A DNA stretch of 22,446 nucleotides from positions 1 to 22,446 of the IMG/VR virus record IMGVR_UViG_3300050821_005176. One strand, 5' to 3'. This document shows positions 10,330 through 22,446 of this stretch, piece by piece. Position numbers and translations under genes: made by a program. Position 1 is the first letter of the stretch; each line of letters begins with the position of its first letter. Below the pieces are notes generated by a model. It had not been told where the DNA came from, did no database searches, and worked only from the letters and a program-made list of their open reading frames with translations. Source of the DNA: a virus.

Positions 10330-10405
10330 TGGTTCGGTCGGAGAGAATCGAACTCCCGTATTCGCTAATGTTTGCAGCGATGCTCTACCATTGAGCTACG
10401 ACCGA
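10330..10405 (-). tRNA. tRNA with encoded CCA and an irregular anticodon arm (identity uncertain)
   Basis: Read on the minus strand, the gene has a perfect 7-bp acceptor stem (TCGGTCG at 10405-10399 with CGACCGA at 10340-10334), discriminator A and encoded CCA (10332-10330). The D arm is GCTC-AATGGTA-GAGC and the T arm is GGGAG-TTCGATT-CTCTC. The anticodon arm is odd: TCGCT pairs with AGCGA around a nine-base GCAAACATT. Alternatively a closing G-T pair gives a seven-base loop CAAACAT with no U at position 33. The natural reading frame of CTGCAAA suggests Cys (GCA), while the centred loop would be AAC (Val). It is embedded in the leftward operon between deformylase and a 68-aa gene. Confidence 0.85.
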
Positions 10406-13230: not shown

Positions 13231-13503
13231 ATGCTGATGCTGACACGTAACAAAGGAGAATCTATTGATATCATTGATTCCAACACACAGGAACTGTTGT
13301 GCACGATCACACTGCTGCAGATCATAACCAAAGATCGAGCACGTCTCGGGTTCGATGCCCCCAAGCACATCAGTATTGTGCGGGACAATGCCGTCAGGGT
13401 ACTCGATAGGCGCAGACCGGAGGAAAAACTGGGGGGAGGGGATGTGGGTTGCAAGGCTCACGAGGTTACCGATTGTGTTATTTGTAGAGGAGAAGGAACA
13501 TGA
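13231..13503 (+). CDS. csrA: CsrA/RsmA-family RNA-binding protein with a C-terminal extension
   Basis: A 90-aa protein. Residues 1-55 match CsrA in order: MLMLTRNKGESIDI (beta 1-2, with Leu4/Thr5/Arg6), a slightly longer turn, ARLGFDAPKHISIVRD (beta 3-5 with the GxxAPKxxxxxR core including the RNA-contact Arg) and a C-terminal helix start. CsrA dimers bind GGA in mRNA leaders and block or open ribosome sites. Beyond the usual ~60 residues is an extra tail with C-x(5)-H and CVIC, a possible zinc site, absent from host CsrA. SD AGGAGAAGGA is immediately upstream. It lies ten bases after the helicase gene in the early operon. Probably retunes host or phage translation. Confidence 0.88.
   Translation: MLMLTRNKGESIDIIDSNTQELLCTITLLQIITKDRARLGFDAPKHISIVRDNAVRVLDRRRPEEKLGGGDVGCKAHEVTDCVICRGEGT
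13488..13497 (+). promoter_or_regulatory. Extended SD AGGAGAAGGA before the membrane-protein gene
   Basis: Second copy of the ten-base motif, two bases before ATG 13500. It lies inside the 3' end of the csrA-like coding region, so the leader is translated and any CsrA binding would have to compete with elongating ribosomes. Confidence 0.7.
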
Positions 13504-20255: not shown

Positions 20256-21797
20256 ATGAAAAACCGCCTCATCATCTTCGGTCCCCCAGGTACGGGTAAG
20301 ACGCACACCCTGTTGAATAATCTCGATGCTCATCTTGACGCGGGGACCCCACCTGACCGGATCGCGTTTCTGACATTTACTCGTCGGGCTCGTCGCGAGG
20401 CCCTAGAGCGTGTGGAGAAGCGATTCAATCTAAAGCCTAAGGATCTGCCTTACTTCACCACGATCCATGCACTCGCCTTCAAGGGCATGAAGCTCAAAGA
20501 AGGAGATGTGTTGGATAAAGACTCTATTGGAGAGTTCGGCAAGATCATCGGCATGAAGTTCACGGAATCTCGATTCAGTGAGCAATTGTCAGAAGGATTG
20601 AACGGAGAGATCCAAGAGGGCGACTATTACCTGAGCCTGATCGAGTTAGCTCGTTTGCAGGGCACGCCGATCGAAACGATGTGGAGGAGACAGACAGGTG
20701 TCAAGCCAGAATGGACTAAGGTTGACTGGTTCGTGCGCACATATGAAGAGTTCAAGACCGAGCACGGCTTGCTCGACTTCACCGACGTGTTGGTACAATA
20801 CGCGAAGAAAGGTGAAGCTCTTGACCTGGATGTGGGTTTTGTGGATGAGGCGCAAGACCTGTCGTCTCTCCAATGGCTCGTGGCTCTACAAGCTCTGGAA
20901 TCTGCCCCTGATCAGTACATCGCGGGAGATGACGACCAATCCTTGTTCAAATGGGCTGGAGCTGATGTTGAGACGTTCCAAGGGCTGCAAGGCGAGAGAC
21001 TGATCCTGACACAATCGTACCGTATCCCCAAGGTAGTGCATCGTGTAGCCTCTCAGATCGTGGCACGAGTCAAACAACGTGTGATCAAGGAGTTTCAATC
21101 ACGGGATGAGGAAGGGGAGCTGAAACACTATTCATCGGTTGAGCTGTTGCCGATACCCAAAGCAGGGGAGGAATGGCTGTGGCTCGTGCGCAATCGTTAC
21201 ATGTTGAATGAGCTGCGCAATCGACTCTCTGAGAACGGCGTAGTGTATTCAGGATCCCACGGGCAGTCCTCTATTGTCGAAAGCGAGCGCAAAGCGATCT
21301 ATGTCTGGGAGAAATTGCGCGCGGGTAAAACTCAAGTGGCGGAAGACATTCGCGATATGTACGCGAAGCTGCGCACACGAGTTCAGATCAGGCACGGCTA
21401 CAAGGCATTATCGGATGCCTATGATCGTGACCTGTTGACACTGTTGGAGCTGCAACGGGATCACGGCTTGTTAGCAGACGGTCCGTGGTACGAAGTCTTC
21501 ACGACCATCCCCTTAGCTCGTCGAATGTATTACCGCAAGCTGTTGCGACATCACAAGACGCTGAATCTGGCTCCGTGCGTTCAATTGGAGACGATTCACG
21601 GAGCTAAGGGGGCTCAGGCCGATCATGTCGCACTCTTCTTAGAACAGAGCAAGCGCACCTGGGCTGAATCGCAGCAGAATGCGAGCGACGATGAGCATCG
21701 GGTCTGGTATGTGGGCTGTACGCGTGCACGCATCTCATTGCACGTCGTAGCGAGCAGCTCGCGCTATGCATACCCCTTCCCCCGAGCCGGCGTATAG
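20256..21797 (+). CDS. UvrD/Rep-type superfamily 1 DNA helicase
   Basis: A 513-aa helicase with the SF1A motif set: Walker A FGPPGTGKTHT (residues 8-18), motif Ia FLTFTRRARREA (about 38-49), motif II FVDEAQDLSS (about 195-204), motif III GDDDQSLFKWAGAD (about 224-237), motif IV TQSYRIP, motif V IHGAKGAQADHV (about 445-456) and motif VI VWYVGCTRARISLHV (about 478-492). It should unwind DNA 3'-5', in replication restart or recombination. It is short compared with UvrD (~720 aa), mainly missing the large 1B/2B inserts. Last gene of this tight operon; a terminator-like hairpin follows. Confidence 0.93.
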   Translation: MKNRLIIFGPPGTGKTHTLLNNLDAHLDAGTPPDRIAFLTFTRRARREALERVEKRFNLKPKDLPYFTTIHALAFKGMKLKEGDVLDKDSIGEFGKIIGMKFTESRFSEQLSEGLNGEIQEGDYYLSLIELARLQGTPIETMWRRQTGVKPEWTKVDWFVRTYEEFKTEHGLLDFTDVLVQYAKKGEALDLDVGFVDEAQDLSSLQWLVALQALESAPDQYIAGDDDQSLFKWAGADVETFQGLQGERLILTQSYRIPKVVHRVASQIVARVKQRVIKEFQSRDEEGELKHYSSVELLPIPKAGEEWLWLVRNRYMLNELRNRLSENGVVYSGSHGQSSIVESERKAIYVWEKLRAGKTQVAEDIRDMYAKLRTRVQIRHGYKALSDAYDRDLLTLLELQRDHGLLADGPWYEVFTTIPLARRMYYRKLLRHHKTLNLAPCVQLETIHGAKGAQADHVALFLEQSKRTWAESQQNASDDEHRVWYVGCTRARISLHVVASSSRYAYPFPRAGV

Positions 21798-21822
21798 ACG
21801 GTTTCAGACGGTTTCAGACGGC
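21797..21822. repeat. GACGGTTTCA tandem repeat containing a DUS-like 10-mer
   Basis: GACGGTTTCA is repeated at 21797-21806 and 21807-21816, then GACGGC. The last copy contains TTCAGACGGC (21813-21822), which is the exact reverse complement of the neisserial DNA-uptake core GCCGTCTGAA. It follows the helicase stop codon directly. The arrangement is direct, not the inverted pair that forms neisserial terminators. Confidence 0.6.
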
Positions 21823-21870: not shown

Positions 21871-21985
21871 CAGCGATTCTGGGGGTGTCACTCAGGCACG
21901 CGTAAGTACTTGATAAATTTAAGAAAAAAGATGAGACAGAATGGACTTAGGAAGAGCATAATCTGACCTCGGTGGAGAGACTTAT

Positions 21986-21995
21986 AGGAGAAGGA
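21986..21995 (+). promoter_or_regulatory. Extended SD AGGAGAAGGA before the 77-aa gene
   Basis: Fifth copy of the ten-base motif. Two ATGs follow (21995 and 21998); AGGAG is seven bases from the second, which is the more likely start. Confidence 0.7.
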
Positions 21996-21997
21996 TG

Positions 21998-22231
21998 ATG
22001 TTCAAGAAAGATGATCAAGTGCGCATTCCCCCCGGATCCTGGATTCATACGATCGGCTGGGTGGCTGCTGATGTCGTCGCGACGGGAACAGTGACTCAAG
22101 TCAATAAGAACGGCAAGAAACTCTCCGTACGCGTGAACGAAGTGCGCAATGCACTCAAGCGAGATTGTCGTACCACCACCGCCGTTGCCAAAGTCTGTGC
22201 CTTCTCTGTTGATGCTGTCATCCCTGCCTGA
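21998..22231 (+). CDS. Small SH3/KOW-like phage protein upstream of the ribozyme
   Basis: A 77-aa basic protein. FKKDDQVRIPPGSWI, then VVATGTVTQVNKNGKKLSVR, is a beta-barrel-like pattern (a hydrophobic strand with a central VN-KNGKK turn) close to SH3/KOW mini-domains. The C-terminal half is rich in Arg, Thr and Ala and ends with strands. Start ATG 21998 is chosen for SD spacing; ATG 21995 adds one Met. Its stop TGA (22229-22231) is four bases before a hammerhead ribozyme, so the mRNA would be cut about 49 nt after the stop. Confidence 0.7.
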   Translation: MFKKDDQVRIPPGSWIHTIGWVAADVVATGTVTQVNKNGKKLSVRVNEVRNALKRDCRTTTAVAKVCAFSVDAVIPA

Positions 22232-22234
22232 AAT

Positions 22235-22286
22235 ATCACACTGACGAGCCCCGAAGGGCGAAACGAGCTGCAAGCTCGTATGTGAT
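22235..22286 (+). ncRNA. Type I hammerhead self-cleaving ribozyme
   Basis: All conserved parts are present in order. Stem I: ATCACA (22235-22240) with TGTGAT (22281-22286). Core box CTGACGA (22241-22247; CUGANGA). Stem II: GCCC-CGAA-GGGC (22248-22259). GAA at 22260-22262. Stem III: ACGAGCT (22263-22269), loop GCA, AGCTCGT (22273-22279), which begins with the required A15.1-U16.1 and C-G pairs. Cleavage residue H17 is A22280, so GUA is cut between 22280 and 22281. The open stem is stem I, which defines type I. It should cleave the early transcript co-transcriptionally, leaving a 2',3'-cyclic phosphate upstream and a 5'-OH downstream. No mismatch is seen in any stem. Confidence 0.95.
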
Positions 22287-22446
22287 TAAGGAGACCGGGC
22301 TGCTGCAGCAGTACCGCCGGGAGTCGCGACAAGATGTCGCAGGGGCCGCCGAGTTGACGACTCGGGAGACGACACGACAGAACGTGGGCAATGTCTCAGC
22401 AGCGGGTAATTCGCGAACCGACAAGTTCGAATGCAGTGACAGTGCA
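22282..22446 (+). CDS. Possible start of a gene downstream of the ribozyme (alternatives unresolved)
   Basis: From GTG 22282 (inside ribozyme stem I) a frame stays open to the window end for 55 codons (VIKETGLLQQYRRESRQDVA at the start). AAGGAG at 22288-22293 has no ATG/GTG/TTG at normal spacing, only CTG 22300 in the same frame. A rival start is ATG 22391 (MSQQRVIREPTSS onward) in another frame, with only a weak SD. Hairpins at 22326-22340 and 22349-22365 and the palindrome CTGCTGCAGCAG (about 22300-22311) suggest instead a structured leader RNA. I cannot decide which. Confidence 0.3.
   Translation, partial: MIKETGLLQQYRRESRQDVAGAAELTTRETTRQNVGNVSAAGNSRTDKFECSDSA

Follow-up and report, generated by a model that had tools for sequence, protein, structure and literature searches.

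A type I hammerhead ribozyme just past a stop codon in an uncultured bacterial virus: a candidate intercistronic cutter

The accessible text of Perreault et al. (2011; PMC3088659) describes hammerhead arrays in prophages, for which RNA processing was proposed and cleavage was demonstrated in vitro and in E. coli. A hammerhead also occurs in the HF1 group of haloviruses, tailed dsDNA viruses in which its function is unknown (PMC7230728), and a statement cited in PMC10085705 has bacterial hammerheads enriched in the vicinity of Mu-like phage genes and other self-cleaving ribozymes. The role of the phage hammerheads has been an open question since 2011. Here we analyse a hammerhead of an uncultured bacterial virus, whose whole IMG/VR record of 22,446 bases is referred to as the window.

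The ribozyme and its surroundings

The + strand half of the window carries replication genes, i.e. a SNF2-type helicase, a Pam3 gp34-like protein, an AEP-type primase and a UvrD helicase, and the region, all on the + strand, is plausibly expressed as one early operon. The terminase of the window shares 56% identity with the terminase of Burkholderia phage Magia. A gap of 197 nt, with a tandem GGTTTCAGAC GGTTTCAGAC at 21800-21822 (+) behind the helicase gene, separates the UvrD helicase gene from a 78-codon ORF, for whose product no homologue was found in phages, viral contigs or genomes. The features that follow the primase are listed below.

20256-21797 (+): UvrD-type helicase gene; its homologue in the related contig L211 precedes the hammerhead array of that contig
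21995-22231 (+): 78-codon ORF with gene-like codon usage and a TGA stop 3 nt ahead of the ribozyme
22235-22286 (+): type I hammerhead ribozyme, whole motif, from core, stems, minimum free energy (MFE) fold and covariance models
22235-22240 (+): stem I 5' strand AUCACA, pairing with 22281-22286
22241-22247 (+): core CUGACGA (C3-A9; G8 is G22246), read directly from the sequence
22248-22259 (+): stem II GCCC/GGGC (22248-22251/22256-22259) with the 4-nt loop II CGAA, from sequence and fold; 12-nt class
22260-22262 (+): core G12-A13-A14 (GAA), read directly from the sequence
22263-22279 (+): stem III of 7 bp with loop GCA, including A15.1-U16.1, from sequence and fold
22280 (+): H17, an A; cleavage predicted from the sequence 3' of A22280, 49 nt past the stop codon
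22281-22286 (+): stem I 3' strand UGUGAU, the predicted 5' end of the downstream product, from sequence and fold
22287-22289 (+): UAA flank facing U22234 (a U.U mismatch adjoining stem I), a subclass signature by its association with the 4-nt loop II
22288-22293 (+): Shine-Dalgarno-like AAGGAG, read directly from the sequence, immediately past the ribozyme
22300-22446 (+): frame lacking any stop up to the contig end; possible CTG start (CTG22300) 6 nt past AAGGAG
22326-22429 (+): three perfect short hairpins (22326-22340, 22349-22365 and 22414-22429)

Elsewhere, the window has a gene for a CsrA-like protein (13231-13503, +; Pfam PF02599, E=7e-10), whose product is possibly a post-transcriptional regulator, and, in a gene block on the opposite strand, a tRNA-Val with an AAC anticodon (10330-10405, -).

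Judged from its sequence, the segment 22235-22286 is a genuine, complete type I hammerhead, and it is predicted to cleave itself. Every core base and three perfect stems are present where the earlier note had placed them; the motif begins, as that note also claimed, just past a stop codon (3 nt after the TGA at 22229-22231), and the A that it had named as the base of the predicted cleavage site, A22280, occupies H17. The helices comprise 6, 4 and 7 bp, stems II and III being closed and stem I open, which is the type I topology. When the motif was folded in six contexts, its pairs had a probability of about 0.8-0.95 in most of the longer ones, and in one (21995-22290) the pairing of stem I was low (P 0.11).

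Past the ribozyme, no ATG, GTG or TTG lies at the usual distance from AAGGAG. The codon score of the 22300-22446 frame, for which no relatives were found, is -0.06, at about the 5th percentile of the genes of this phage, yet it is the best of the six frames. The G+C content past the ribozyme is 61%, versus 51% for the window, and a palindrome, CTGCTGCAGCAG, is situated at 22300-22311 (+) in the G+C-rich stretch, which ends at the contig edge. The segment had been called hairpin-rich. This is borne out by the three hairpins, which pair 17 bp versus 4.0 in shuffles, a value reached by 7 of 1000 shuffles, but not by the overall folding energy of the last 160 nt, which is ordinary (z=-0.43). It is conceivable that a structured non-coding RNA starts at 22281, its 5' end being set by the ribozyme, with no separation of mRNAs. 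Such an RNA would suit the missing standard start codon, the hairpins and the raised G+C, and phage hammerheads that define tRNA 5' ends do exist; nevertheless, the stretch folds no better than its shuffles, has no Rfam match and contains a frame that stays open to the contig end behind a well-spaced Shine-Dalgarno sequence, and we regard this explanation as unlikely.

Recognition and subclass of the ribozyme

The earlier note had asked for a check by folding and against Rfam. Both the MFE and the centroid structure of the motif are exactly the hammerhead fold (z=-3.3), and RF00163 matches it with 25.8 bits (E=5e-4 in a local search and 4.9e-6 at genome scale), but this score is below the Rfam gathering score of 34, which is a search convention and no molecular property. 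RF00163 has the same core bases, three stems and type I order as the window copy, but the Rfam model represents the phage subclass poorly. A covariance model trained on 30 other phage hammerheads whose stem II segment is 12 nt long, and not on the window copy, yields 58.2 bits (E=4.3e-16) for 22232-22291, its sole match in the window. Two other candidates at the locus were rejected: RAGATH-1 (RF03152) overlaps the same bases, but with 17.1 bits versus a cut-off of 56.3, and the Rfam match to PhotoRC-I is far under its cut-off.

The hammerheads used for comparison were collected by scanning a phage-like core pattern over IMG/VR, which gave at least 120 stretches. The core pattern is expected 0.06 times per shuffled window, and a scrambled pattern of the same content has 3 matches in the whole IMG/VR collection. 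Of 120 stretches among the matches listed, 113 contain complete hammerheads of type I or III according to a structural scanner, which recognised none on the reversed sequence; a slightly stricter version, used afterwards, retained 110 loci with 174 hammerheads, again among the matches listed. Little weight is given to covariation in the hammerhead alignment (A1), because the scanner demanded pairing and the covariation is thus partly built in. No near-identical hammerhead was found in IMG/VR, and a DNA search of INPHARED with the element and its surroundings returned chance matches only.

Among the matches listed, the phage type I hammerheads fall into two groups by the length of loop II. Members of the 5-nt group have A.A just beyond a 6-bp stem I and AAA or AAC as the 3' flank, whereas those of the 4-nt group usually have Y.U beyond stem I, often UAA as the 3' flank, and A more often at H17 (10 of 36 members among the matches listed). 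The association with loop II length is significant for the 3' base (Fisher p=5e-13 over copies, 9e-7 at one per locus) and for H17 (p=2e-4 and 3e-4, respectively); counting one copy per locus reduces the effect of relatedness without modelling kinship. The window hammerhead has loop CGAA, U.U, UAA and A at H17, and therefore carries all marks of the 4-nt-loop group, including bases outside the motif searched for. The signature probably reflects a tertiary contact between loop II and stem I.

Placement at stop codons and at tRNA 5' ends

Counting stop codons of ORFs with 60 aa or more, 88 of the 131 type I copies testable among the matches listed start no further than 10 nt from where a same-strand stop codon ends; at random positions the share is 6.7%, and for the opposite strand it is 14 of 123. 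In these type I copies, among the matches listed, the stop often lies within stem I or coincides with the UGA in CUGA, whereas the listed type III copies mostly start 19-37 nt past the stop. The predicted cut is mostly 33-60 nt from the stop in type I and 26-44 nt in type III, and in type I the next Shine-Dalgarno sequence and start codon commonly follow about 23-30 nt past the cut, both among the matches listed. Such a pair is found within 45 nt downstream of 61 of 159 hammerheads among the matches listed, versus 6.6% at random. This fixed placement suggests that long viral messages would be cut into separate pieces. The window copy fits the rule, lying 3 nt past the TGA at 22229-22231 with its predicted cut 49 nt past the stop.

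The placement also bears on a translation-coupled switch, in which the ribosome ending the 78-aa gene would cover the stem I 5' strand (4-9 nt past the stop) and block folding, so that cleavage would occur only when upstream translation is slow. Type I copies that touch or overlap the stop codon are indeed within the footprint of a terminating ribosome. However, the type III copies, with their larger offset, are largely beyond it, and the overlap is equally explained by compaction of phage genomes; this switch seems to us quite improbable. An inserted mobile or circular-RNA element (retrozyme or viroid-like) is an even more remote candidate: hammerheads elsewhere serve such elements (PMC7761336), but here the ribozyme is single, flanking repeats are absent and the position obeys the phage stop-codon rule, and we give this origin almost no credence.

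The statement of the earlier note that phage hammerheads are mostly isolated copies is not supported by this sample, in which 36 of 110 loci, among the matches listed, have at least two. Several copies each are present in L009, L014, L018, L070, L083 and L109, and within one phage the hammerheads often agree or nearly agree in stem I (e.g. GGUUAA/UUAACC) but not in stems II and III, which is possibly due to trans-acting exchange or shared descent. The window has one copy, and the contig ends 160 nt further on; it is possible that an array follows past this end.

Contigs with tRNA arrays have hammerheads that adjoin tRNA genes. Among the matches listed, all five hammerheads with a tRNA at most 60 nt downstream have their predicted cut exactly at the mature tRNA 5' end, and these five came from the set that was found regardless of tRNAs. 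They belong to the following units, in each of which a type I hammerhead is directly upstream of the tRNA.

L072:8394-8525: predicted cut at tRNA-Tyr +1
L076:6872-7007: predicted cut at tRNA-Tyr +1
L079:6478-6756: predicted cut at tRNA-Tyr +1, twice; the first tRNA-Tyr is uncalled by ARAGORN and was assigned from its acceptor, anticodon and CCA
L037:1432-1578: predicted cut at G-1 of tRNA-His

tRNA-His alone among tRNAs retains a base at position -1. In these units one strand is both the 5' side of the acceptor stem and the 3' side of ribozyme stem I, which suggests a maturation of tRNA 5' ends that would be independent of RNase P. Two further tRNA-Tyr cases with the predicted cut at the tRNA 5' end (L231 and L232) are not independent, because the search pattern already required this spacing. 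The hammerhead-tRNA-Tyr pattern had 4 matches in the genome collection, all without a tRNA, and a stricter pattern for such fusions had none. In the literature searched, which mostly excluded subscription papers, we found no prior report of hammerhead cuts at tRNA 5' ends, and the coincidence appears to be new. Hammerheads also occur 6-7 nt past the 3' ends of tRNA-Lys and tRNA-Asp genes, in L002 (- strand) and at L035:579-627.

A contig related to the window, L211 (IMGVR_UViG_3300040801_000321), has its replication module in the same order, i.e. SNF2 helicase, Pam3 gp34-like protein, primase and UvrD helicase, and the last of these is followed by type II hammerheads, about 11 in number, eight of which exceed the RF02276 cut-off.

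L211:12660-18583: type II hammerhead array, with one copy after most early genes behind the UvrD helicase

All but the first of these hammerheads are exactly at stop codons. In the ten copies measured with a type II scanner, the start is -1 to +1 nt from the stop, the predicted cut 26-34 nt past the stop and the next start codon 52-63 nt past the cut. A recurring leader, ACAA(G/A)CCGATTGGAG, precedes most start codons in the array. The array begins at the place syntenic to the window hammerhead, behind the homologue of the UvrD helicase, but with another topology, and therefore the placement, not the sequence, seems to have been kept or re-invented between the two.

None of 98 loci related by primase or helicase has a full-core type I or III hammerhead, and in 97 of them no full-core match of types I-III was found, the sole exception being L211 with its type II copies; other type II scanner matches in related loci are as weak as those of the reversed-sequence control. 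The window hammerhead is therefore not conserved in its lineage. Neither Burkholderia phage Magia, the terminase relative, nor phage DSL-LC04, a helicase relative, has a type I or III hammerhead. This absence from nearly all relatives, together with the score under the Rfam gathering score, could be taken to mean that the window copy is an inactive relic or a chance fold. Its intact core bases, the subclass signatures outside the core and the E of about 4e-16 with an independent model, however, make this very unlikely.

Proposed role and relation to known systems

We consider it fairly probable that the window element is a cis-acting, intercistronic type I hammerhead that splits a rightward phage transcript. 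Once RNA polymerase has moved past 22286, the RNA would fold and, co- or post-transcriptionally, break its own chain between A22280 and U22281, which would separate two functional RNAs. The upstream product would end 49 nt past the stop of the 78-aa gene, with stems II and III as 3'-terminal hairpins and a 2',3'-cyclic phosphate at its 3' terminus, and the downstream product would begin as 5'-HO-UGUGAUUAAGGAG..., with the Shine-Dalgarno sequence 7 nt from the new end. Hammerhead chemistry leaves 2',3'-cyclic phosphate and 5'-OH ends. Both should resist the usual entry points of decay, i.e. 3' exonucleases and the 5'-monophosphate-dependent RNase E, and therefore separation with stabilisation would be expected. 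The net effect would be the conversion of a long transcript into separately lived mRNAs.

Transcript processing, to which the earlier note had pointed, is the best-supported reading in view of the stop-codon offset, the syntenic L211 array and the cleavage published for prophage arrays, although this support is positional and partial. Observed here are the motif, its exact fit to the subclass, its location next to the stop codon and the recurrence of this placement rule across many phages; from these we infer cleavage, co-transcription and an effect on stability for the window hammerhead. That the predicted cut falls at mature tRNA 5' ends in tRNA-array phages is independent evidence that its position follows a need of RNA processing. 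Against the intercistronic role stand the single copy in the window, the 97 of 98 related loci without a full-core hammerhead, the absence of a standard start codon at the usual distance and the stem I P of 0.11 in one context. A weak promoter-like site ahead of the 78-codon ORF (21933-21962) also counts against it, since the 78-aa gene could be transcribed from there on its own as a short RNA.

We further offer, as a tentative proposal whose chances we put somewhat short of even, that phages use hammerheads as a general system of RNA processing. In it, types I to III would be interchangeable intercistronic cutters at a set distance from the stop, and the window copy would open an array that continues past the contig end, of type I where L211 has type II; in phages with tRNA arrays, tRNA-Tyr and tRNA-His would obtain their mature 5' ends from the same ribozyme and not from RNase P. 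If this is true, messages and some tRNAs of some phages are processed by built-in RNA catalysts and not by the RNase E, RNase III or RNase P of the host, and the 5'-OH ends escape both 5'-phosphate-dependent RNA-seq and 5'-phosphate-dependent decay. The position rule and the coincidence of cut and tRNA 5' end make the role directly testable with a few short transcripts.

Intercistronic phage hammerheads and the processing idea are already known; the positional rule is sharper than what we found described, where a missing description is no proof of its being unpublished. The hammerhead of the halovirus HF1 group is likewise in a tailed dsDNA virus, in that case an archaeal one, a likeness drawn from its description (PMC7230728). 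The prophage arrays of Perreault et al. (2011) differ in that the window fragment has one copy and that a fixed stop-codon offset is not described in the accessible text of that paper, but they likewise place the same ribozyme class in the gaps between phage genes (PMC3088659). Because that text proposed processing and showed cleavage, we regard the window copy as a further case of the known phage hammerheads.
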